Below are positions 1-13,909 of a stretch of DNA of 64,000 nucleotides, piece after piece. This DNA is from an uncultured Gemmiger sp. (GTDB taxonomy: Bacteria > Bacillota > Clostridia > Oscillospirales > Ruminococcaceae). A program made the position numbers and the translations under genes. Numbering within the stretch: the stretch's first letter is position 1; each line of letters opens with the position of its first letter. The notes under the pieces are model-generated. The model had not been told where the DNA came from. It saw only the letters and a list, made by a program, of their open reading frames with translations, and did no database searches. The DNA lies in the NCBI GenBank assembly GCA_944388145.1, contig CALXHQ010000001.1, positions 310,001-374,000 of the forward strand, in the 5' to 3' direction.

Positions 1-1062
1 AAATACCCCAACGTGGACGGCGTGGTGGCTGTCACCCACCCCTACGGCTGCGGCGTGGCCATCAACGCACCGCTGGCCAAGATTCCCATCCGCGCGGTGA
101 CCAACCTGATCCGCCACCCGAACTTTGGCGGGGAGATCATGGTGGTGGGTTTGGGATGCGAAAAGCTGACCTATGACCGGGTACTGCCCCCGGAGGACAT
201 CACCCCTGAAAATGTGCTGACACTGCAGGACTATGCCGGTCACGACGCCATGATGCAGGCCATCCTGGACATGGCGGACAAAAAGCTGCAACGGCTGAAC
301 CGGCGCCGCCGTGAGGAGCTGCCTCTGAGCGAGCTGCTGATCGGCATGCAATGCGGCGGCAGCGATGCATTCAGCGGCATCACCGCCAACCCCAGTGCGG
401 GCTATGCAGCCGATATGCTGGTGCGGGGCGGTGCCACCGTTCTGTTCAGCGAGGTGACCGAGGTGCGCGACGGCGTTCATATGCTGGCCGCCCGCTGCGT
501 GGACGAGCACACCCGCGATCGCTTGGCCGAGGAAATGCAGTGGTACGACGACTATCTGGCCCAGGGCGGCGTGGACCGGGATGCCAACCCCACCCCCGGC
601 AACAAGAAGGGCGGCCTGGCCAACATTGTGGAAAAGGCCATGGGTTCCATCGCCAAGAGCGGCACCAGCCCCATTGTGGAGGTGCTTTCCCCCGCCGAAA
701 AGCCCACCAAACACGGGCTGATCTATGCGGCCACCCCTGCCAGCGACATCGTCTGCGGCCCCAGCCAGGTGGCCAGCGGCATCGACCTGCAGGTGTTTAT
801 GACCGGCCGCGGCACCCCCTACGGCCTGGACATCTGCCCGGTCATCAAGGTTTGCAGCCGCACCGAGATGAAGCAGCACTGGTTTGACCTGATCGATATT
901 TCCGCCGGCGGCATTGCCACCGGGGACAAAACCATCCCTGATGTGGGGCGGGAGATTTTTGACATGATCCTGGACGTGGCCAGCGGTATCCGCCAGCCGT
1001 ACAGCGACCAGTACGGATTCCACAACGATATGTGCATCTTTAACCCTGCACCCATCACCTGA
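1..1062 (+). CDS. garD: Galactarate dehydratase, C-terminal part (5' truncated by window edge)
   Basis: The open frame enters from the left edge (first codons read K-Y-P-N-V-D-G) and ends at a stop at 1060-1062, so the gene starts outside the window. The visible ~353 residues correspond to the C-terminal part of the UxaA/GarD family. The segment [10 protein letters not shown] followed by [17 protein letters not shown] closely resembles enterobacterial GarD and is less like altronate dehydratase Uxa[18 protein letters not shown], with its Cys and His/Asp-rich surroundings, is also family-typical. The known role is iron-dependent dehydration of galactarate (mucate) to 5-keto-4-deoxyglucarate in the cytosol. 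That fits the convergent gudD, garR and glycerate kinase genes nearby. The next gene starts 46 bases downstream on the same strand. UxaA-like altronate dehydratase is the main alternative. Confidence 0.85.
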
Positions 1063-2581: not shown

Positions 2582-3934
2582 TCAGCGCACCAGACAGGGC
2601 TTTTTGTGGTCGTAGGTCCAGCCGGAGATCAGATACTGCATGGCCATAGCGTCGTCCCGGTCATGGCTGGGCAGGCTATTGTACAGGGCGTTCGCCTGCA
2701 TGACCCGGTCCATGTTCAGATGCACGCCCAGACCGGGGCCTTCAGGCACCTGCAGCTTACCGCCGATGATCTGCGGGGTATCCTCCAGCAGGTTTTGCCC
2801 ATCCTGCCAGATCCAGTGGGTATCCAGCGGTGCCGGGGTTCCGGCGGCGGCAGCCCCCACCTGGGCAAAGGCTGCCAGCGTGATGTCGAAGTGATTGTTG
2901 GAGTGTACACCCCAGGTCAGGCCCCAGGATTCCAGCAGCTGAGACATACGGACGGCGCCGTCAAAGCCCCAGAAGTGCGGGTCGGCCAGGATGATGTCGC
3001 AGGCATTCAGGCTGACGGTGTGGTAGAACTGCCGCCAGTCGGTGGCGATCATGTTGGTGGCCACCTGGAACTGGGTGGCATTTTTGAACTCTCGCATGAT
3101 CTCGCGGCCGGAGAAGCCCGCCTCGGGACCGCAGGGATCCTCCACATAGGTGATGACGCCGTGCATTGGCCTGCACAGGCGGATGGCCTCTTCCAAGCTC
3201 CAGGCGCCGTTGGGGTCGATGTTGATGCGGGCTGCAGGGAAGGCTTTTTTCAGCGCGCAGAGATCTTCCATCTCCTGTTCCCCGCGCAGGACGCCGCCCT
3301 TAAGCTTAAAGTTTTCAAAGCCGTACTTTTCCTTCAGGGCCTGGGCCTCCTCAACGATGCGTCCGGAGGTAAGAATTTCCTCGCGGCGAAGTCGGAACCA
3401 GGGATCCGGGCTGTTGCTCTCATCCAGATAGGCGATGCCAGGGGCTGTATACTTGCTCTTGTCCGAGACGTAGAACAGATAGCCCAGCACCTCCACCTCA
3501 TCGCGCTGTTTGCCTTCGCCCAGCAGCTGGCACATGGGCACGCCCGCAAACTGGCCCATCAGGTCCATCATGGCGCACTCGATGGCCCATTCGCTCTTGA
3601 CGACAAACTTCAGCTTGGAGATGTCCAGCGTCTGGATTCCCTCACCGTCGTCACCGGCGCCGGGCTTTGTCAACTTGTGAATCTTTTGCAGCACCTGGCG
3701 GTAGCAGGCCACAGGTTGCCCCACCACCAGCGGCTTGACCGCGTTGAGACAGTCACAGGTATAGTCGCCGCCGTGGATTTCGCCGATACCGGTGTGTCCG
3801 GCATTGTCCTTGAGGATGACCAGATTGCGGGTAAAGCAGGGCGCATGGGCACCGCTGAGGGTCATAAGCATGCTGTCATAACCGGCCACCGGGATAACCT
3901 GCATACTGGTGATCACGGGAGATGAAATGGGCAT
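2582..3934 (-). CDS. Glucarate dehydratase-like enolase-superfamily protein (second paralogue, GudX/GudD-like)
   Basis: This 450-residue enolase-superfamily member clearly resembles the other glucarate dehydratase in the window. Residues expected for GudD chemistry are present: K210-x-K212, D240 in IDPNG, E271, N294, D318 in ADP and H344 in VHSNNHFD. It therefore looks catalytically competent rather than a dead copy. The known family reaction is dehydration of D-glucarate or L-idarate to 5-keto-4-deoxyglucarate. Compared with the 9568-10896 copy it has different N-terminal and active-site-cap segments (insertion around residues 92-105), which hints at a different hexarate. It is the last minus-strand gene of the island, lies 99 bases downstream of the glycerate kinase and behind a strong terminator, and has no obvious promoter of its own. 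Expression may depend on read-through. Confidence 0.85.
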   Translation of the reverse strand: MPISSPVITSMQVIPVAGYDSMLMTLSGAHAPCFTRNLVILKDNAGHTGIGEIHGGDYTCDCLNAVKPLVVGQPVACYRQVLQKIHKLTKPGAGDDGEGIQTLDISKLKFVVKSEWAIECAMMDLMGQFAGVPMCQLLGEGKQRDEVEVLGYLFYVSDKSKYTAPGIAYLDESNSPDPWFRLRREEILTSGRIVEEAQALKEKYGFENFKLKGGVLRGEQEMEDLCALKKAFPAARINIDPNGAWSLEEAIRLCRPMHGVITYVEDPCGPEAGFSGREIMREFKNATQFQVATNMIATDWRQFYHTVSLNACDIILADPHFWGFDGAVRMSQLLESWGLTWGVHSNNHFDITLAAFAQVGAAAAGTPAPLDTHWIWQDGQNLLEDTPQIIGGKLQVPEGPGLGVHLNMDRVMQANALYNSLPSHDRDDAMAMQYLISGWTYDHKKPCLVR

Positions 3935-4033: not shown

Positions 4034-5266
4034 TTACTGTACCAGCGCCACTGCCACGTCATTGACGTTGGTGCCGGTGGGGCCGGTAACGATCAGTCCG
4101 TCCACAGCCTGCAGGGCATGGTAGGCGTCATTGTCGGCCAAAACATCGTGGACGCTGAGCCCCTTGGCGGCCAGTGCGGCGGCAGTATCGCCGTCCACAT
4201 AACCGCCCGCCGCATCGGTGGGGCCGTCGGTACCGTCAGACCCCACGCTGAACACCGCGGCATTTGCCATACCGGCAATGCCGGGGGCTGCAGCCAGAGC
4301 CAGCTCCTGATTGCGTCCCCCCAACCCGTGACCCGTCAGATGAACCACCGTCTCGCCGCCCGCCAGAAAAGCCAGCGGCCTGTCAGTATTCTCATGGGTC
4401 TTGAGCACCGATGCCAGAAAGCTGCCTGCCTCTTTGGCCTGGCAGCACAGGCGGTCGGTGAGAAGCACCGGCTCATACCCCAGCCCGCGGCAGGCGTCCG
4501 CCGCCGCGGCGCACAGCTCCCGCACGCTGCCGGTGATCCGTGTTTCTACGTTGTCCAGCTGCTTGGGGGTTTCGCTGTGCAGGCAGGCCATGGCCTGGTC
4601 ACTCAGGCGCAGGCTGTATTTGCTCACCACAGCCAACGCGTCGGCGCAGGTGGTGGAGTCGGGACAGGCCGGGCCGGAGGCAATCATGTCCAGCGGGTCG
4701 CCGATGATGTCGGACAGCACCACGGCGTAAACCTTTGCAGGGGCGCAGGCCTCGGCAAAGCGGCCGCCCTTGACGCCGGACAGGCGCTTGCGGACCGTGT
4801 TCATCTCGACGATATCGGCACCGCAGGCCAGCAGCTGGCTGGTGATATCCTGCAGTTCCCCGCCGGGGATGAGCGGCTTTTCAAACAGGGCGCTGCCGCC
4901 GCCGGACAGCAGGAAGAGGACAGTGTCCCCCGCCGCTGCGTCCGCCACCAGTTCCAGCGCAGCCTGGGTGGCCCGGAACGAATTTTCGTCCGGCACCGGA
5001 TGCCCTGCCTCGTAGCAGGTGCAGCGGGGCAGCTCCCCCTTGACATGGCCGTATTTGGTTACCACCACGCCGGCCGAAAGCCGGTCGCCCAGGCAGAGCA
5101 CGGCTGCATGGGCCATCTGCCAGGCTGCCTTGCCGGCGGCCACCAGCAGTACCCGGCCAGGAAACTGCCGGTCTTCCAGCGCACGGCGGACCGCTTCGTC
5201 CGGAAGCACGGCATGAATCGCCTGCCGGAGGATCGTATCAGCATTGGCACGCAAGCGGCTGTTCAT
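4034..5266 (-). CDS. Glycerate 2-kinase, MOFRL (class II) family
   Basis: The 410 residues match the DUF4147/MOFRL glycerate kinase family. The N-terminal domain carries VVAAGKAAW-like VLLVAAGKAAWQMA (~41) and the hallmark LFLLSGGGSALFEKP (~116-130). NTVRKRLSGVKGGRFA follows, then the C-terminal MOFRL motif GGRNQELALAAA with SVGSDGTDGPTDAAGG. The family phosphorylates D-glycerate, typically to 2-phosphoglycerate. Here it would finish hexarate breakdown by feeding glycerate made by the upstream garR product into lower glycolysis. The ATG at 5266 has an AGAGG ribosome site and lies 33 bases after garR, so the two are co-transcribed. Older annotations call such proteins hydroxypyruvate reductase (TtuD); the neighbourhood favours the kinase role. 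Confidence 0.9.
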   Translation of the reverse strand: MNSRLRANADTILRQAIHAVLPDEAVRRALEDRQFPGRVLLVAAGKAAWQMAHAAVLCLGDRLSAGVVVTKYGHVKGELPRCTCYEAGHPVPDENSFRATQAALELVADAAAGDTVLFLLSGGGSALFEKPLIPGGELQDITSQLLACGADIVEMNTVRKRLSGVKGGRFAEACAPAKVYAVVLSDIIGDPLDMIASGPACPDSTTCADALAVVSKYSLRLSDQAMACLHSETPKQLDNVETRITGSVRELCAAAADACRGLGYEPVLLTDRLCCQAKEAGSFLASVLKTHENTDRPLAFLAGGETVVHLTGHGLGGRNQELALAAAPGIAGMANAAVFSVGSDGTDGPTDAAGGYVDGDTAAALAAKGLSVHDVLADNDAYHALQAVDGLIVTGPTGTNVNDVAVALVQ

Positions 5267-5299: not shown

Positions 5300-6181
5300 T
5301 CAGCGACCGATCTGGATGCCGGTCAGCTTCTCGTAGTAATGGGCGATGCAGCTGTGGTCATGCTGACCCTCGCCGTTATTGTGCAGCCACTGCAGCACCT
5401 CCTGCACCTCGGCGGTCATGGGGACCGGTGCGCCGATGGCATGGGCGCAGTCAAGGGCGTTGTTCAGGTCCTTGATATGCAGGTCAATCTTGAAGCCGGG
5501 CTTCTCGTCGCCGGCAATCATCATGGGAGCCTTGGCATTCATCACGGTGGAGCCCGCCAAGCCGCCCTTGATGGCCTCAAACACCAGCTGCGGATCGACA
5601 CCGGCCTTCTGGGCCAGGGTCAGGGCCTCGGCCAGGGCCTGGATGTTGCAGGCAACGATGATCTGGTTGGCCAGCTTGGTGGTGTTGCCGGCGCCCACGT
5701 CGCCGCAGCGCACAACCGAAGCGCCCATGCAGCCCAGCAGATCCTTGTACTTGTCAAACACTTCCTGCTTGCCGCCGACCATGAAGGACAGGGTGCCGTC
5801 AATGGCCTTGGGCTCACCGCCGGAAACCGGAGCATCCAGCATATCAATGCCCTTTGCTTCCAGAACAGCGGCAATCTCCTTGGAGGCAACCGGGTTGATG
5901 GAGCTCATATCAATGAAGGTGGTGCCGGGGCGCATATGCTCGGCAACACCGCCCGGGGTCAGCATAACTTCCTTCACCTGGGGGGAGTTGGGCAGCATGG
6001 TCATCACCACATCGCAGGTATCGCCGATTTCCGGCTGGGTGGCGGCGGTGGCTCCGGCGGCCACAACCTCGGCCACATTGGCCTCGTTGCGGTCATTGAC
6101 CAGCAGCTCGTAGCCGGCCTTCAGCAGATTTTTTGCCATGGGCTTGCCCATGATACCCAGACCAATCAGACCAAGTTTCAT
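5300..6181 (-). CDS. garR: Tartronate semialdehyde reductase (2-hydroxy-3-oxopropionate reductase)
   Basis: A 293-residue beta-hydroxyacid dehydrogenase. The N-terminal Rossmann motif GLIGLGIMGKPMAKNLLKAG (residues 4-23) binds NAD(P)H. The substrate motif DAPVSGGEPKAIDGTLSFM (~115-135) and the catalytic-lysine motif GNTTKLANQ (~165-173) are intact. The length is normal for GarR/GlxR (about 295). It reduces tartronate semialdehyde to D-glycerate in the cytosol. Its position between a pyruvate-lyase-family gene and a glycerate kinase fits the galactarate/glucarate pathway. The start ATG at 6181 is preceded by GAGAGG. It lies 104 bases after the DapA-family gene, probably in the same transcript. 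Confidence 0.92.
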   Translation of the reverse strand: MKLGLIGLGIMGKPMAKNLLKAGYELLVNDRNEANVAEVVAAGATAATQPEIGDTCDVVMTMLPNSPQVKEVMLTPGGVAEHMRPGTTFIDMSSINPVASKEIAAVLEAKGIDMLDAPVSGGEPKAIDGTLSFMVGGKQEVFDKYKDLLGCMGASVVRCGDVGAGNTTKLANQIIVACNIQALAEALTLAQKAGVDPQLVFEAIKGGLAGSTVMNAKAPMMIAGDEKPGFKIDLHIKDLNNALDCAHAIGAPVPMTAEVQEVLQWLHNNGEGQHDHSCIAHYYEKLTGIQIGR

Positions 6182-6285: not shown

Positions 6286-7206
6286 TTACAGCAGATCCAT
6301 TTCCTTCAGCACAGTGCGCAGCTTTTCCTTCTGCTCAGCGGTCAGTTCCTGGATGGGATCCAGGCACTTGCCAACCGGCAGCCCCTGCATAACCAGCGCC
6401 TCCTTGATGGTCTGAGGGAAGGTACCCATGTTGGTGGCAATGCGCAGCGGTGCCAGTTTGTACTGGGCTGCCAGCGCGCCGGCATAGTCGCCGTCCTCCC
6501 ACTTGTCATAGATGTCGGCGGTAATGCGGGGGGCGACATTGGCGCAGCTGGCAATGGCGCCGGTGGCGCCGTACATCAGTGCGGCAAAGATCATGGTGTC
6601 GCGGCCCATCAGCACGTTGAAATGATCCCGCTGGTCGGCGGTGAGGCGCAGGTACTCCTCCGCGTTGGTCATGTCGCCGGTGGAGTCCTTGACGGCTACA
6701 ATGTTCTTGCAGTCGCGGGCCAGGCGGGCCACCGTGGCGGGGGCAATGGTGACGTTTGTTTTGGGTTTATTGTTGTATAGAATCACCGGCATCTCGGTGC
6801 TGTCGGCGATGGTCTTGTAGTAAGTATACAGCTCGTCCTGCGTCTGGCTGATAAACATGGGGGTCAACACGCTGACCGCGTCATAGCCGCCCACCTGCTC
6901 CACCAGCTTGATGAGATGGATCACACCGCGGGTGGTGATGTGATTGCAGCCGGCAAACAGCTGAATGGGGCGGCCCTTGCGGGTGGCTTTGCCCACCACA
7001 GCCTCCTTGACGGTGGTCAGGATCTTGACAAACTCGTCATCGTTGACCGCGTAGAACTCGCCGGTGGTGCCCAGCGGAAACAGACCGTGCACGCCGCCGT
7101 CCACCAGGCGCTTGCTCATCATGGCCAGCACGTCGTAGTTGACAGAGCCGTCATCGTGAAAAGGGGTAATGATGGGGGGTGTAATGCCATACGGTACAAA
7201 CGCCAT
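6286..7206 (-). CDS. DapA/NanA-family lyase, probable 5-keto-4-deoxyglucarate aldolase
   Basis: A class I Schiff-base lyase of 306 residues from the ATG at 7206, which has AGGAAG just upstream; an in-frame start seven codons earlier lacks this site. The PLGTTGEFY motif (44-52), Tyr144 in ILYNNKP and the Schiff-base Lys173 in VAVKDSTGD are all present. Family members either cleave or dehydrate 2-keto acids (DHDPS, N-acetylneuraminate lyase, KDG aldolase, 5-keto-4-deoxyglucarate dehydratase). The next two genes encode tartronate semialdehyde reductase and glycerate kinase, and no GarL-type (HpcH) aldolase is visible. The context therefore argues for retro-aldol cleavage of 5-keto-4-deoxyglucarate to pyruvate and tartronate semialdehyde. 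A dehydratase making 2-oxoglutarate semialdehyde is the main alternative. It is the first gene after the promoter at 7284-7311. Confidence 0.8.
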   Translation of the reverse strand: MAFVPYGITPPIITPFHDDGSVNYDVLAMMSKRLVDGGVHGLFPLGTTGEFYAVNDDEFVKILTTVKEAVVGKATRKGRPIQLFAGCNHITTRGVIHLIKLVEQVGGYDAVSVLTPMFISQTQDELYTYYKTIADSTEMPVILYNNKPKTNVTIAPATVARLARDCKNIVAVKDSTGDMTNAEEYLRLTADQRDHFNVLMGRDTMIFAALMYGATGAIASCANVAPRITADIYDKWEDGDYAGALAAQYKLAPLRIATNMGTFPQTIKEALVMQGLPVGKCLDPIQELTAEQKEKLRTVLKEMDLL

Positions 7207-7283
7207 AAGAATCTTCCTTTCTGTCACCGGCGCGATCCAAACGGTCGCCGCCTGCCGGCATCCTCTTTTTCGGGTTTGATTCT

Positions 7284-7311
7284 ATTATAAAAAACCCCCG
7301 CCGCAGTGCAA
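7284..7311 (-). promoter_or_regulatory. Sigma-70-type promoter for the DapA-family/garR/glycerate kinase operon
   Basis: On the minus strand TTGCAC (7306-7311) is followed after 16 bases by a perfect TATAAT (7284-7289). No sigma-54 -24/-12 element (GG-N10-GC) could be fitted here. The leader to the ATG at 7206 is about 70 bases. Confidence 0.7.
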
Positions 7312-7328
7312 TTGGCAGTTAGGCCAAA
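7309..7328 (-). promoter_or_regulatory. Shared operator-like box (TTTGG-N11-ATTG) upstream of the DapA-family operon promoter
   Basis: Minus strand TTTGG-N11-ATTG abuts and slightly overlaps the -35 element, and contains the perfect inverted repeat TTGGC-CTAACT-GCCAA. Related boxes sit at the same promoter position at 11002-11022 and 15431-15451. Confidence 0.5.
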
Positions 7329-7339
7329 GGGGGCAGGCG

Positions 7340-7411
7340 TGTTTCATTGCAATCTGACAGTTTTTCACTTTTTTGTTTCATTCCGTTTCCGAATCATTGC
7401 ATATTGAAACA
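7340..7411. promoter_or_regulatory. Cluster of TGTTTCA/TGAAACA elements between regulator and lyase genes
   Basis: TGTTTCA occurs at 7340-7346 and 7374-7380, and its inverse TGAAACA at 7405-7411. The last two form an inverted pair whose centres are 31 bp apart, about three helical turns. One more copy lies at 11043-11049 upstream of the gudD promoter. These are candidate upstream binding sites for the adjacent PrpR-like regulator; no direct proof exists in the sequence. Confidence 0.4.
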
Positions 7412-7458: not shown

Positions 7459-9354
7459 TCACTGTTCAATCCCCAGCTTTTTGATCTTGCGCCACAGGGT
7501 GGTGGTGCTGATGCCCAGTTCCTGTGCTGTCAGCGCGCGGTTGCCATCGTTGCGGGCCAGCGCCTGGGCGATGCGCTGGGCCTCGCGGCTTTGGTTAGAG
7601 GGAAGCCGGGTCTCCTCGACCGGATCCCGGGCGGGGAACATCTGCTGCCACAGATGGCGGATAGCGCTTTCGTCAATGCTGCGATGCGTGGCAGTGAGCA
7701 CCAGCCGTTCCATAAAGCTGTTGACCTGAATGATGTTGCCCGGCCAGTCATAGCTTTGCAGCAGCTGCATACCGCCGCTGGTGATGACATGGTAGCGGTG
7801 GAAAGTCTCACAGGTCTCCTCAAACGTCTTTTTCAGGATGTCTGCCAGGTCCTCCGGGCGCTTTTTCAGCGGCGGCAGGTCGATGCGCAGGCCGGCCAGC
7901 AGATAATACAGGTCCGAGCGGAACCGCCCTTCACAGGCAAGATCCCAAAGATCCACCTCGCTGGTGGCGATCAGGCGGGTATTCACATGGATGGGCCGTT
8001 CCAGATTGCGCTGGATCACCCGGCGATACCGCACCGCCTGGTAAATATTGGACTGCACCGTGTAGGACAGCTTGTCAATCTCCTGCAGCATCAGGGTGCC
8101 GTTTTCTGCTATGCCAAAAACGCCCAGGTCCACCTCCCCGTCCTTGTTCTTGTAGCCGGTGCCAAACAGCGTGGTCATCTGCTCATCCGGTTCCATGGTG
8201 GCACAGTTGAGCTGCACCAGCGGGCCGGTGGCGTTGGCACTGTTGTTGTGGATGCACTGGGCCAGCAGGCGGATCTCCGACCCCTGTGGCCCGGAAAGCA
8301 GAATGGGGCCTTCCGACTGGCTGAACAGACGGGCCTCATCCACCGCGCGGGACATGAGCGGCGAGCGGTGATGCACGTTGTCGAAGGTGCGCTGAGCCAG
8401 ATTGCCCGAAAGCATCTGCCCGTCCTCCACCGCCGGGTCCAACTGGATGGTGCGGTGCACCTTGTGGCAGGAAAGGATCGCCCCCTCCATCTTGCCGTTT
8501 TCCAGCCGGATGGGAGCCAGAATGGCCACCATAGCCTGATAGTGAATGTGCAGGAAGGTGGAATAACTGCTGCCGCCCTGCAGCACGGTCTCGATCACCT
8601 CCGGTTCCAGGCCGGGGATCACCTCCTGCAGGGGCCGCCCTTTGAGGGACTCCAGGGTGGCACCCAGGTCCTTGAGCATGATCTCGTTGCAATTGACCAC
8701 CTTGCCCGCGCGGTTGACCTGAATGTAACCGTTTGTGGTGTTGTTGAGCAGGGCATCGATCTGCGCGTTGGCGCGCTGGTTCATCTCATCCGCCTGCAGG
8801 ACCGTCTCTGCGTTCTGGATGGCATCCTGGAAGGAATCGTCGCTGAAATCCAAAAACAGGCAGGCGGCACCGGCCTGCCGGGCCATCTCGACCGTCTTGT
8901 CGCCGCCGATGATCACATCCGGGTTGCTGCTCAGTGCCTCCCGGTTGACCTTGGCATACTCCTCCTCGGTGCGGTAGACGAAAATTTGCAGGTCCACGTT
9001 GAACAGCAGATTGCAGCAGCTGGTGTCACAGAGCATATCGTTGACCACAACCATTGCGACACGGGGCCTGGGGTTCTGGGTGAGCTGGTGCGCTTTGCGC
9101 AGAAGCAGGCCAATCCCCTGGGCGGTGAGGCGCACGCTGACCACCGGCACATTGAAATGCTCCCGGATGCGCAATGCCTGCAGACCGCGGGCGATCAGCA
9201 CAGCGGCTCCCCGGCCGATGGAGGCCCGGGCTTCCTCCACCGCGTGTTCGGTGGCGATGCAGCGGATCTCGGTGACGGAGTCATGTCCGCGGGCCTGTTC
9301 CCGGGCCTGCCGGACCAGTTCCTCCCTGGGGAGCAGCATGGCAATATGGTTCAT
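7459..9354 (-). CDS. PrpR-type transcriptional regulator with degenerate sigma-54 AAA+ domain
   Basis: The protein has 631 residues from the ATG at 9354 (GGGGAAGG upstream). Domains: PrpR_N-like ligand sensor (~1-185), PAS (~195-305), sigma-54-interaction AAA+ domain (~325-555) and a Fis-type helix-turn-helix (~590-630, ending TTTLWRKIKKLGI). The AAA+ domain is recognisable (GRFRSDLYYLL, LPPLKKRPEDL, YDWPGNIIQV) but key positions are lost. Walker A reads LLSGPQGSEI (354-361) with no GK. Walker B reads GTLMLQEID, with Q instead of D at 424. The GAFTGA loop is absent around 398-414. It therefore probably cannot hydrolyse ATP or remodel sigma-54 holoenzyme. It likely controls the flanking hexarate genes at sigma-70 promoters in response to a sugar acid; the ligand is inference. 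Confidence 0.88.
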   Translation of the reverse strand: MNHIAMLLPREELVRQAREQARGHDSVTEIRCIATEHAVEEARASIGRGAAVLIARGLQALRIREHFNVPVVSVRLTAQGIGLLLRKAHQLTQNPRPRVAMVVVNDMLCDTSCCNLLFNVDLQIFVYRTEEEYAKVNREALSSNPDVIIGGDKTVEMARQAGAACLFLDFSDDSFQDAIQNAETVLQADEMNQRANAQIDALLNNTTNGYIQVNRAGKVVNCNEIMLKDLGATLESLKGRPLQEVIPGLEPEVIETVLQGGSSYSTFLHIHYQAMVAILAPIRLENGKMEGAILSCHKVHRTIQLDPAVEDGQMLSGNLAQRTFDNVHHRSPLMSRAVDEARLFSQSEGPILLSGPQGSEIRLLAQCIHNNSANATGPLVQLNCATMEPDEQMTTLFGTGYKNKDGEVDLGVFGIAENGTLMLQEIDKLSYTVQSNIYQAVRYRRVIQRNLERPIHVNTRLIATSEVDLWDLACEGRFRSDLYYLLAGLRIDLPPLKKRPEDLADILKKTFEETCETFHRYHVITSGGMQLLQSYDWPGNIIQVNSFMERLVLTATHRSIDESAIRHLWQQMFPARDPVEETRLPSNQSREAQRIAQALARNDGNRALTAQELGISTTTLWRKIKKLGIEQ

Positions 9355-9567: not shown

Positions 9568-10896
9568 TCAGCGCACCATGCAGGGGCGCTTGGGATCAAA
9601 CTTCCAGCCGGGGATCAGGTACTGCATACCCTTGGCGTCATCACGGGCGCCCAGGCAGTTGTCAACATACAGCTTGTGAGCCTTCATGACCTGGTCGCGG
9701 TCGACCTCAATACCAAGGCCGGGCTTGTCGGGCAGGTCGATGCAGCCGTCCACAATCTGCAGAGGTTCCTTGGTCAGGCGCTCGACGCCCTCCTGCCAGA
9801 TCCAGTGGGTATCAATACCGTTCATGCGGCCGGGCACAGCGGCGGCAGTCTGAACCATCATGGCCAGGCTGATGTCAAAGTGGTTGTTGGAATGGCAGCC
9901 CCACATCAGGCCGAAGTCGTTGCACATCTGCCCCACACGGACCGAGCCGTTCATGGTCCAGAAATGGGGGTCGGCCAGAGGGATGTCCACACTGTTCAGG
10001 GCAATGCAGTGGGCCATCTGGCGCCAGTCGGTATCGATCATGTTGGTGGCAGTGGGCATACCGGTGGCACGGCGGAACTCAGCCATGATTTCGCGGCCGG
10101 AGAAGCCGTCCTCCGCACCGCAGGGATCCTCGCAGTAGGCCAGGACCTTTTTTAGTTCAGGGGCGATGGCCAGTGCCTGTTTCAGGCTCCAGCAGCCATT
10201 GGGGTCCAGGTCAACACGGGCCTCGGGGAAAGTCTCCTTGATGGCCTGAACCGCTTTCAGCTCCTCCTCGGGAGTAAGAACGCCGCCCTTGAGTTTGAAG
10301 TCCTCAAAGCCGTACTTCTTTTGGGCAGCCCTGGCCAGGGCAACAATGGCGTCGGGGGTCATTGCCTCCGCATGGCGCAGGCGATACCACTCGCAGTCGG
10401 CATCCGGCTCACTGTCATAAGGCAGGTCGGTTTTGGTGCGGTCGCCCACATAAAACAGGTAGCACAGAAAACGCACCCGGCTGCGCTGGACGCCGTCGCC
10501 CAGCAGAGCTGCGGCAGGCACCCCCAGATATTTGCCCAGCAGGTCCAGCAGCGGAGCCTCGATGGCGGTGACCACATGGACGCCGGTGCGCAGATCAAAA
10601 GTTTGCTGGCCGCGGACGTCGTCCTTGATGTTGGCAGTCAGCCAGTCGTTGACGGCCTTCAGGGTGTTTTTGTAGGCGCCGATGCTGGTGCCTTCCACCA
10701 GGTGCCTCACATCCTCCAGGGCCTTGGTGATCTTCTGACCGCCGGGAACCTCGCCCACGCCGGTGGCCCCGGTGGAGTCGGTGAGAATCACGATGTTGCG
10801 GGTGAAATAGGGAGCATGCGCACCGGACAGGTTCAGTTCCATACAGTCCTTGCCGGCAACAGGATAAACCTCCATCTTGGTAACAACAGGTGTCAT
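9568..10896 (-). CDS. gudD: Glucarate dehydratase
   Basis: A 442-residue enolase-superfamily enzyme from the ATG at 10896 (AGGAAG upstream; a longer in-frame extension has no ribosome site). The catalytic set of E. coli GudD is conserved at a constant offset of four residues: K201-x-K203, D231, E262, N285, D309 and H335. It dehydrates D-glucarate (and L-idarate) to 5-keto-4-deoxyglucarate. The best-conserved stretches are [18 protein letters not shown] and CHSNNHFD. It has its own promoter (10976-11004) in the gap behind the mannonate-dehydratase-like gene. It is the better GudD candidate of the two paralogues in the window. The 213-base gap downstream, before the regulator start, contains an imperfect hairpin near 9496-9517 but no clear terminator. 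Confidence 0.93.
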
Positions 10897-10975: not shown

Positions 10976-11004
10976 ATCATAGCAGCAAGGCCGCCCCCCG
11001 GCAA
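10976..11004 (-). promoter_or_regulatory. Sigma-70-type promoter of gudD
   Basis: On the minus strand TTGCCG (10999-11004) is followed by exactly 17 bases and TATGAT (10976-10981). The arrangement is nearly identical to the transporter promoter at 15405-15433. Confidence 0.65.
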
Positions 11005-11022
11005 TCGACAAAAATCACCAAA
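11002..11022 (-). promoter_or_regulatory. Shared operator-like box (TTTGG-N12-ATTG) at the gudD promoter
   Basis: Minus strand TTTGG-N12-ATTG, whose inner part reads TTTTTGTCG. The right half (TTTGTCGATTG) is identical to the box at 15431-15451. It lies directly upstream of and partly over the -35 hexamer, where an activator could touch RNA polymerase. Confidence 0.55.
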
Positions 11023-11079
11023 GGGAGCGGCCCACGTTGTAATGTTTCAACGAGATTGCAGTTTTATTGCATTCTCATT

Positions 11080-12204: not shown

Positions 12205-13056
12205 TTACTTTGCTTCGGGATAAATGTCGGGATACATCTTCTTGACAGCATCGGCGCGGTTACGCAACACATCGCCCCAAACATAGTCACCAATCCAAAC
12301 ACGGTAGTCCGAACGGTCGGCAGGGATGTTGGGCTTCACATTGCCCTGGTTCAAGTGGCTGGGCAGGCAGATGTCGATCTTCCAGTCAGCCAGTTCCAGG
12401 CAGTCGCGGATGAAAATGTGAGGCAGTTCGGTGGACAGATTGTTGTCGTGCAGGAATTCGGGCGACATCATGCCAATGCCGATGCCGCCGTGCATTGCAC
12501 AGTGGAAAACCTCGCCGGTCTCATCATCCTTGTCATCAAAATAGAAGGAGGTAGCGCCAGGGGTGTGGCCGGGGGTCAGGCGGGTGTGCACCGAAAAGCG
12601 GCCCAGGTCAATGGTCTTGCTGTCATCGTAGAAATGATCAACGCGGTAATCCACCATAGGCAGCGGATCTGTCAGGTCCTTGTGCAGCTGATGCTGCTCT
12701 TCATCGATGGAGGAGAGGTAGACCTCGGCACCGGTCATTTCTTGTAAATAGCGGGCACCGTTCACATGATCCCAGTGCCAGTGGCTGAGCAGAATTTTTT
12801 TGATATCACGGGGATTGTAGCCAATGCGGTAGATGCCGTCCAGCAGCAGGTAGAAGGAGGCGCGGTAGCCGGTATCAATCAGCATCAGACCTTCCTCACC
12901 GCAATCCAGCAGGTAGGCACAGACGTCATCCTGGCCGCCCACTTGCCACACATGTGGAGCAGCGCGATAGGGTGCCACCGCATACTTCCAGGGATGCTCC
13001 AGATCATCACCGCAGCGGGGATGTTCAACCGGGGCGTAATACAGTTTCTTTTCCAT
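12205..13056 (-). CDS. Metallo-beta-lactamase-fold hydrolase (tandem copy 2)
   Basis: The protein has 283 residues from the ATG at 13056 and closely resembles the next gene upstream (13061-13909). The zinc motif H-x-H-x-D-H is seen in LLSHWHWDHVNG, with later His ligands in TPGHTPGA and LPSHLN. Where many MBL hydrolases carry a bridging Asp (xGD), this protein reads AMHGGIG. Superfamily members include lactonases, thioesterases and glyoxalases. In a glucarate/galactarate operon, opening of sugar-acid lactones is an attractive but unproven role. It starts 4 bases after the paralogue's stop, so translation is probably coupled. Confidence 0.8.
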   Translation of the reverse strand: MEKKLYYAPVEHPRCGDDLEHPWKYAVAPYRAAPHVWQVGGQDDVCAYLLDCGEEGLMLIDTGYRASFYLLLDGIYRIGYNPRDIKKILLSHWHWDHVNGARYLQEMTGAEVYLSSIDEEQHQLHKDLTDPLPMVDYRVDHFYDDSKTIDLGRFSVHTRLTPGHTPGATSFYFDDKDDETGEVFHCAMHGGIGIGMMSPEFLHDNNLSTELPHIFIRDCLELADWKIDICLPSHLNQGNVKPNIPADRSDYRVWIGDYVWGDVLRNRADAVKKMYPDIYPEAK

Positions 13057-13060
13057 AGTG

Positions 13061-13909
13061 TTATTCCTTTCCGGCATAATGTTCAGGATAATATCCTTTG
13101 ACGACCTCGGCGCGGCCGAGCATCGTCTCTTTCCATGCATAGTCTGCCACCCAGACGCTGTAATCGTTGCGGTCAACAGGAATATTGGGCAGCACATTCC
13201 CCATGTTCAGGTGGCTGGGCAGCATGATGTCCACCTTCCAATCAGCAATTTCGATGGTTTCATCCACAAAGTGATAGGCGATCTGCTTTGTAAGGCTCCA
13301 CTCTTCCAGATTTTCGGGACGCATCATCGGCACGCCGATGCCGCCGTGCATAGCACAGGTGTAGGTTTTGCCGCTCTTGTCATCAGTATCATCAAAGCGG
13401 AACACCATGGCGCCGGGGGTGTGGCCGGGGGCCAGCTTGGTCTCAATGGTGAAGCGCCCCAGCTTAACCGGGATGTTGTCATCGTAGAAATTGGTAACGG
13501 TGTAATCGATCATCGGCATATGATCTGTGCGGTCCTTGTGCATCTGATGCATGACTTCGTCCTCTTTGGACAGCCAGATCTCACACCCGGACATCTCCGC
13601 CAGATAACGGGCACCGTTCACGTGATCCCAATGCCAGTGGCTGAGCAGAATCTTTTTGATATTGCGCGGGTCGTACCCCAGGCTCCAGATCTGATCCAGC
13701 ATCAGATAAAAGGAGGATGCATAACCGGTATCGATCAAAATTAAACCCTCGCCGCTATCCAGCAGGTAGGCACAGACATCGTCCTGGCCGCCCACTTGCC
13801 ATACATGCGGGGCAACACGGTAGGCAGCCACCGCATATTTCCAAGGGTGTTGGATGTCATCGCCAAAGCGGGGATGATTGACCGGCGCATAATAAATCTT
13901 TTTTTCCAT
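13061..13909 (-). CDS. Metallo-beta-lactamase-fold hydrolase (tandem copy 1)
   Basis: The protein has 282 residues, beginning MEKKIYYAPVNHPRFGDD, and aligns with copy 2 almost end to end. It shares the WQVGGQDDVCAYLLD, SHWHWDHVNGARYL, APGHTPGA, CAMHGGIG and LPSHLN blocks. It is cytosolic, with no signal peptide. The tandem arrangement and strong conservation point to a duplication, perhaps with divergence in substrate. It is the second gene of the transporter-led transcript, 129 bases after the transporter stop. Function beyond metal-dependent hydrolase is not determinable from sequence. Confidence 0.8.
   Translation of the reverse strand: MEKKIYYAPVNHPRFGDDIQHPWKYAVAAYRVAPHVWQVGGQDDVCAYLLDSGEGLILIDTGYASSFYLMLDQIWSLGYDPRNIKKILLSHWHWDHVNGARYLAEMSGCEIWLSKEDEVMHQMHKDRTDHMPMIDYTVTNFYDDNIPVKLGRFTIETKLAPGHTPGAMVFRFDDTDDKSGKTYTCAMHGGIGVPMMRPENLEEWSLTKQIAYHFVDETIEIADWKVDIMLPSHLNMGNVLPNIPVDRNDYSVWVADYAWKETMLGRAEVVKGYYPEHYAGKE

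Follow-up and report, generated by a model that had tools for sequence, protein, structure and literature searches.

A PrpR-type regulator in a Gemmiger hexarate island has lost its sigma-54 contact loop and catalytic residues and probably works at a sigma-A promoter

The shift from an ATP-burning sigma-54 activator to an activator of ordinary sigma factors is, to our knowledge, known mostly from single end points. The parts of Francke et al. 2011 (PMC3162934) drawn on here name TyrR, DhaR and HupR as homologues that depend on sigma-70 and whose GAFTGA motif is broken, and give about 110 homologues with such deviations. In the portions of a second source used here (PMC10274813), NtrC of Rhodobacter capsulatus requires ATP binding and not hydrolysis, Caulobacter NtrC requires both Walker motifs and VpsR does not require ATP. 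Nie et al. 2019 (PMC6615313), in the sections used, sought activators in Clostridiales that carry sigma-54. The regulator described here is encoded in a 64,000-nucleotide stretch of DNA from an uncultured Gemmiger sp. (assembly GCA_944388145.1, contig CALXHQ010000001.1, forward-strand positions 310,001 to 374,000), which as a whole is called the window. It resembles TyrR, HupR, the NtrC proteins of R. capsulatus and Caulobacter, and VpsR, which have lost the sigma-54 contact loop and work at sigma-70 promoters as far as the same parts of the sources go (PMC3162934, PMC10274813). Most probably it is a ligand-responsive activator of hexarate (glucarate/galactarate) breakdown that now works at a sigma-A promoter and needs no ATP hydrolysis; within this reading, binding to the sites, activation rather than repression, the ligand and independence of ATP are what we infer. 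We know of no PrpR_N domain or hexarate role in TyrR, HupR, either of the two NtrC proteins or VpsR. A literature search covering regulons for sugar acids, activators without Walker motifs and PrpR in connection with glucarate found nothing on the clade to which the regulator belongs. The kind of protein is already known from TyrR, DhaR and VpsR, and the regulator is a more decayed variant of it; what is new, as far as we searched, is the clade, the graded way in which its nucleotide site was lost and the geometry of its promoters.

7459..9354, minus strand: regulator with PrpR_N, PAS, AAA+ and Fis helix-turn-helix (HTH) domains, 631 residues, without GAFTGA, Walker A Lys and Walker B Asp

The open reading frame runs from an ATG start at 9354 to a stop at 7461-7459 on the minus strand, and an alternative upstream GTG start would give 648 residues. 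Pfam models matched PrpR_N at residues 32-189 (85 bits), PAS at 198-267, Sigma54_activat at 329-491 (93 bits), AAA_lid_14 at 498-570 and HTH_8 at 591-627, all five above the gathering score, in agreement with the domain order that an earlier note on this DNA had read from the letters. Alignment with relatives placed Walker A at GPQGSEI (355-361) with Ile361 at the position of the Lys and Glu360 in place of the Gly preceding it. Walker B reads LMLQEID, with Gln424 for the Asp and Glu425 kept. Loop 1 (LFG-TGYKNKDGEVDLG) is shortened and GAFTGA is deleted from it, the second arginine finger (FRxDLYYRL) is Leu485 with Arg479 kept, and the sensor-II Arg (GNxRE) is Ile542. The alignment thus reproduced the three losses claimed in the earlier note, namely the Walker A Lys (GPQGSEI), the Walker B Asp replaced by Gln (MLQEID) and the GAFTGA loop. 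Intact copies of these motifs elsewhere in the protein would speak against the losses, and in a motif search of all 631 residues no other P-loop, strict or loose, and no GAFTGA-like string was found. Orthologues at 78, 76 and 75% identity have the same Walker A and Walker B losses and the shortened loop, and in one at 57% Arg replaces the Walker A Lys and Met the Walker B Asp. Because orthologues share them, the losses are no sequencing accident.

The regulator has the PrpR_N, AAA+ and Fis HTH architecture of PrpR. It lacks the GAFTGA loop, the Walker A Lys, the Walker B Asp and the complete pair of arginine fingers, unlike Escherichia coli PrpR, which is of the same domain type and has intact Walker A and Walker B motifs and a GAFTGS loop. 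It scored 203 bits against the NCBIfam PrpR equivalog TIGR02329, where 499.2 are needed, and 208.5 bits against the DhaR equivalog NF008485, where 551 are needed, the latter still being its best NCBIfam match. E. coli DhaR likewise has no GAFTGA, an altered Walker B (LFLEKIE), LYYAL for LYYRL and a Fis HTH, and depends on sigma-70 in the part of the source drawn on (PMC3162934); unlike the regulator it retains Walker A (GEEGVGK). Walker A, Walker B and the second arginine finger, all lost in the regulator, are present in E. coli TyrR. The earlier label "TyrR-like" therefore suits the mode of action and not the residues, which resemble E. coli DhaR more. DhaR could not be retained as the direct ancestor of the clade, as the branch that joins them is weak (57/87 in a 62-row tree).

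The gene is maintained under purifying selection. Compared with three orthologues (75-78% identity) the AAA+ core had a nonsynonymous rate (dN) of 0.14-0.15 and a synonymous rate (dS) of 0.58-0.77, a dN/dS of about 0.2, and the sensor domains fell into the same range of dN and dS. Identity to the same three orthologues was 77-80% in the AAA+ domain and 74-81% in PrpR_N. An AlphaFold2 model had a mean predicted local distance difference test score (pLDDT) of 83.3 and a predicted template modelling score (pTM) of 0.44, so that the placement of the domains is unsure. The AAA+ part of the model matched chains of the NtrC1 ATPase 1ny6 with template modelling (TM) scores of 0.88-0.91 by target length (0.91 for 1ny6_C), and in this model the AAA+ fold persists. 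The loss of several catalytic motifs in a genome without RpoN would also be expected of a decaying relic, in which the AAA+ domain or the whole gene drifts towards a pseudogene after RpoN was lost. This was rejected on the dN/dS and the domain conservation, the AAA+ domain being conserved as much as the sensor domains. The frame is also intact, conservation extends to the region upstream of the next operon and the same kind of losses occurs in two RpoN-bearing genomes, and we consider decay very improbable.

The relatives with these losses form a clade of 15 full-length regulators, which includes that of the window and those of two loci from Faecalibacterium metagenome-assembled genomes (loci are labelled L and genomes G below). 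None of the 15 has GAFTGA, a Walker B Asp or a second arginine finger. The clade made up one side of a branch with support of 100/99 on full-length sequences (33 rows), 100/100 without the AAA+ domain and 100/99 on the AAA+ columns minus the motifs (28 rows each). L026 was left out of all trees, as were L053 and L054, which represent a single gene split over two G024 contigs, and L096 and L097 were present in the first tree only. GAFTGA-less activators occur outside the clade too, and the 62-row tree requires at least five changes of that state. L096 (6776-8557) and L097 (1264-3069) have a PrpR_N-like N-terminus, judged by eye, and far more decayed AAA+ domains; their genomes (G100 and G084) gave no Sigma54_DBD match, and the pair stood apart from the clade in the 33-row tree.

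The nucleotide site is lost by degrees. L046, L049-L052, L088 and the partial L053 retain the Walker A Lys, as does L045 (GTEK), which has Glu for the Gly before it. Three groups have lost it: the window with L001, L002, L043 and L044, the pair L047/L048, and L089. Glu at the P-loop Gly was found in all three groups without the Lys and in L045 (GTEK in L045, GLER in L044, GSEI in the window, GCEE in L047/L048 and GTEL in L089); other changes occurred outside the clade. This recurrent Gly to Glu change may block the nucleotide site. Because the tree does not settle the place of L089, the pocket is counted as lost independently two times or more. With its pocket broken in the window subgroup, the AAA+ domain would act as a folded linker or oligomerisation module, and the "static scaffold" of the earlier note, a domain that would bind no ATP, is in keeping with the residues present. 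An AAA+ domain that binds ATP or a signal such as cyclic di-GMP without hydrolysing it, comparable to R. capsulatus NtrC, which binds ATP without hydrolysis in the part of the source used (PMC10274813), could explain why L045, L046, L049-L053 and L088 keep the Walker A Lys when the Walker B Asp is lost wherever the region is present. It does not suit the window subgroup, L047, L048 and L089, which have no P-loop Lys and Glu for the preceding Gly, and we give nucleotide gating a small but real chance.

The window genome (98.8% complete) had no match to the Sigma54_DBD or RpoN model, both of which match 4 of 14 control genomes, E. coli and Bacillus subtilis among them. Together with the lost residues this upholds the earlier claim that the sigma-54 machinery is gone. 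The regulator was the only strong PF00158 match of the genome (97 bits); four further matches over the cut-off reached just 20-37 bits and may be Clp- or Lon-like ATPases. RpoN was over the cut-off in 2 of the 16 clade genomes (G137 and G064). Among the surveyed genomes, a strong RpoN match was found in 13 of 13 with a GAFTGA or GSFTGA loop in the fetched match, and RpoN was over the cut-off in 2 of 8 (G051 and G171) with a loopless fetched match outside the clade. RpoN was not found in G588, a genome of the same order with an intact regulator (91% complete). In the bacterial family concerned 36 of 197 genomes had any RpoN match, 25 one over the cut-off and 21 a strong one. The RpoN retained by G137 and G064, and its rarity in the family anyway, leave loss of RpoN unsupported as the simple driver of GAFTGA loss.

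Sites of the -24/-12 type with at most one mismatch numbered ten in 130 kb of intact-PrpR control loci and zero in 292 kb of clade loci. With at most two mismatches there were 16 such strings in the controls versus 9 in the clade (12.3 versus 3.1 per 100 kb), and at least 6 of the 9 lie inside predicted genes, including both within the first 20 kb of the window. Seven upstream regions tested in the window were at best 4-6 mismatches from a -24/-12 site (shuffle P 0.245-1.0), and the best -24/-12-like site upstream of E. coli prpB had 2 (shuffle P 0.005). RpoN in the genome and a -24/-12 promoter at the target, two further marks of a PrpR-type activator, were thus both missing. A regulator that still activates sigma-54 through an unusual loop would be in line with the RpoN of G137 and G064 and with the GAFTGA variants known in active activators (PMC6615313, in the sections used). 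Its loop is shortened and holds no GAFTGA variant, RpoN is under the cut-off or absent in 14 of 16 clade genomes and the -24/-12 sites are missing as above, making this extremely improbable overall and excluded for the window genome unless its sigma-54 escapes both models. In L091 (10331) and L093 (10847), intact PrpR relatives adjoin 2-hydroxyacid dehydrogenase genes with one-mismatch -24/-12 sites just upstream, and in L093 also a glycerate kinase gene; these are plausible sigma-54 hydroxyacid regulons.

A dyad of TTTCA-N5-TGAAA, first noticed as repeats upstream of the transporter genes of L044, recurs in the clade at a fixed distance from sigma-A-type promoters. Exact dyads with spacer 5 numbered 11 in the 16 clade loci, compared with 0-3 for each of 13 other spacers, and there were none in the seven control loci. 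A -10-like hexamer lay 87-89 bp downstream in 8 of the 11, where chance would place one at 2% of positions or 6% in AT-rich stretches. The loci were then scanned for a dyad with at most one mismatch followed at 60-120 bp by a TANNNT -10 and a TTG -35 spaced by 16-18 bp. This gave 16 matches in the clade loci, 11 of them at 87-89 bp (nine at exactly 88) and the rest at 100 (three), 108 and 119. The control loci gave two matches, at 112 and 115, and ten Markov simulations gave none at 86-90 bp. The set at 87-89 bp consists of seven exact dyads and four fresh one-mismatch sites; nine lie upstream of the tartronate semialdehyde reductase gene, two upstream of a DASS transporter gene and none in L044, the source of the first sighting. 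A looser scan with at most two mismatches, covering 11 clade loci out of 16 and all seven controls, added sites in L046 (two), L049, L050 and L088 and gave none in the controls. On the scale of whole genomes the dyad is not specific, with at least 28 places in G592, at least 13 in G064, at least 3 in G000 and none in G217 among the matches listed.

The centre of the dyad is some 80 bp upstream of the -10, or near -92.5 if the -10 covers -12 to -7, and -92.5 is one of the helical positions used by class I activators such as CRP. Most clade -35 elements differ from TTGACA at 2-3 positions (1 in L045). A sigma-A-class regulator that mainly represses, bound to its operator without ligand and released or looped out by hexarates, must be considered here, as the E. 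coli record calls PrpR, DhaR and TyrR dual regulators. The dyad lies at its fixed distance upstream and not over the promoter, and such -35 elements are expected of activator-dependent promoters; we therefore hold repression to be improbable.

In the window the corresponding elements lie between the regulator gene and the operon that follows it.

7397..7409, minus strand: upstream half-site pair TTTCA-N3-TGCAA, with a presumed regulatory role, 120 bp upstream of the -10
7342..7367, minus strand: candidate operator TGAAAAACTGTCAGATTGCAATGAAA, its TGAAA half 78 bp and its TTGCAATGAAA box 63 bp upstream of the -10
7306..7311, minus strand: candidate -35 TTGCAC, spaced 16 bp from the -10; all four orthologous regions have a TTG at a spacing of 16-17 bp
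7284..7289, minus strand: candidate sigma-A -10 preceding the dapA-like, garR, glycerate kinase and glucarate dehydratase 2 genes; TATAAT, as in all four orthologous regions

The half-site pair was found at 119-120 bp in all four orthologous intergenic regions, with one mismatch in L001. The gap between regulator and operon in the window, L001, L002 and L043 has in common TGAAA-N-ACTG at 78 bp (79 in L001) and TTGC[A/C]ATGAAA at 63 bp (64 in L001) upstream of TATAAT. With its TGAAA at 78 the operator keeps the register that the right half of a dyad at 88 would have, and the left half is not conserved. The 26-bp pattern built from these four loci had no second place in the four genomes at up to two mismatches, so that the regulator looks dedicated to the promoter at 7284-7289. 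The short TTGCAATGAAAC box occurred at 13 places in the window genome with at most one mismatch, and among the eight inspected the window copy alone had TATAAT at 63 bp. The intact dyad was absent from the window (2 one-mismatch matches elsewhere in it, 1.09 expected), and no dyad was common to all of its upstream regions. The E. coli prpR-prpB intergenic region holds GTTTCATAATTGTTGCAATGAAAC, which includes the TTGCAATGAAA box of the window, and as it also has TTGCAATGAAAC this suggests that the way DNA is recognised predates the switch of sigma factor. In the E. coli dhaR-dhaK region (L100), GTTTCATAGTGAAAC upstream of dhaK forms TTTCA-N3-TGAAA, with spacer 3 as in the upstream pair of the window. 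The regulator fits the class of bacterial enhancer-binding proteins acting with sigma-70, having lost GAFTGA, being under purifying selection and having a sigma-A-type promoter beside its candidate sites, the last being judged in the window itself by register and conservation only. The conserved promoter geometry supports the sigma-70-type action proposed earlier. Of the two DNA regions proposed for binding, 7284-7411 holds the conserved candidate operator and promoter; none is placed near 10976-11049, as the dyad-promoter scans found no clade architecture within the first 20 kb of the window.

Activation could then proceed as follows. PrpR_N and PAS would probably sense a hexarate or a downstream intermediate, and the Fis-type HTH would bind TTTCA/TGAAA half-sites, arranged as the dyad centred near -92.5 in most of the clade and as a rebuilt operator with the TGAAA half in the same register in the window subgroup. 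The bound regulator would recruit or stabilise ordinary sigma-A RNA polymerase at the TTG-N16/17-TATAAT promoter. It has no GAFTGA loop for contacting sigma-54, which was undetected in the window genome, and it lacks two residues that ATP hydrolysis would be expected to require, the Walker B Asp and the second arginine finger.

The genes around the regulator point to hexarate breakdown.

6286..7227, minus strand: DapA/KdgD-like aldolase or dehydratase, putative target, no NCBIfam model over the cut-off
5300..6181, minus strand: tartronate semialdehyde reductase GarR, NF008592 and TIGR01505 (NCBIfam) over the cut-off
4034..5266, minus strand: glycerate 2-kinase (DUF4147/MOFRL) by Pfam, NCBIfam glycerate 2-kinase models under the cut-off
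2582..3934, minus strand: glucarate dehydratase paralogue 2, TIGR03247 at 604 bits (cut-off 828.7)
9568..10896, minus strand: glucarate dehydratase paralogue 1, upstream of the regulator gene, TIGR03247 at 740 bits (cut-off 828.7)
13..1062, plus strand: galactarate/altronate dehydratase (gene end), 95-70% identical to clade-locus neighbours

The GarR, galactarate and glucarate dehydratases, DapA-like enzyme and glycerate kinase of the window were used as queries against the fetched clade loci (7-20 kb each). Hexarate-pathway relatives of at least 58% identity lay near the regulator in 14 of the 15 fetched loci, or 15 of 16 with the window. Among the seven intact-PrpR control loci, two had a glycerate kinase and one a 35% relative of the reductase. 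This conserved linkage supports the view, already put forward in the earlier note, that the regulator controls the hexarate island. DapA-like relatives lay near the regulator in most clade loci, and the enzyme perhaps carries out the 5-dehydro-4-deoxyglucarate step. Orthologues of paralogue 1 (84.8-93.2%) lie upstream of the regulator in L001, L002 and L043, and the two glucarate-dehydratase-like paralogues may have split substrates. The galactarate dehydratase relatives in L044, L046 and L051 match GD_AH_C; the regulator of L044 lies about 5 kb from its galactarate/altronate dehydratase gene and near a TctA transporter gene.

Several observations weigh against a sigma-A activator of hexarate genes. 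Glu425 and Arg479 are still present. The four loci of the window subgroup have no intact TTTCA-N5-TGAAA dyad with a promoter, and L089 has neither a hexarate-pathway relative near the regulator nor the promoter architecture. The geometry was found on exact dyads and counted on the same loci, leaving 4 of 11 sites fresh. L047 and L048 nearly duplicate each other, and orthologous promoters from related genomes do not count as independent. In L044 the dyad at 8641 has only a TATTTT at 87-89 bp, without a TTG -35, and two other copies have no -10-like hexamer there, while the nearest promoter to the dyad at 16489 in L051 is at 92 bp with a poor -35. G137 and G064 carry RpoN as well as the regulator, and G221 and G599 have RpoN matches of 19-20 bits, far under the cut-off. 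The RpoN-less clade genomes G110, G189, G217 and G024 are just 81-86% complete, and as RpoN is uncommon in the family its absence alone is weak evidence. Nine two-mismatch -24/-12-like strings also exist in the clade loci.

The clade could represent a full series of steps from sigma-54 to sigma-A, an idea we hold tentatively and at somewhat less than even chance. One ancestral loss would have removed the loop and the catalytic Asp, after which ATP binding could persist, followed by at least two pocket losses with Glu for Gly, while the half-sites persisted and took up a new, fixed spacing to sigma-A promoters. The series would end in the window protein, a sigma-A activator whose AAA+ fold is free of nucleotide and has been kept for a purely allosteric or structural task. 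A single bacterial order holds intact relatives with -24/-12 sites, P-loop-only relatives without the Walker B Asp and relatives with neither. With such intermediates and the candidate operators at hand, the steps of the transition can be tested one by one. For sugar-acid use in gut bacteria of the Faecalibacterium type, the analysis also provides candidate operators and a candidate for the inducer pathway.

Two adjacent genes of the metallo-beta-lactamase fold lie beside the hexarate genes at 12205-13909 of the window. The second is far under the NCBIfam B3 cut-offs and therefore probably encodes a metabolic hydrolase.

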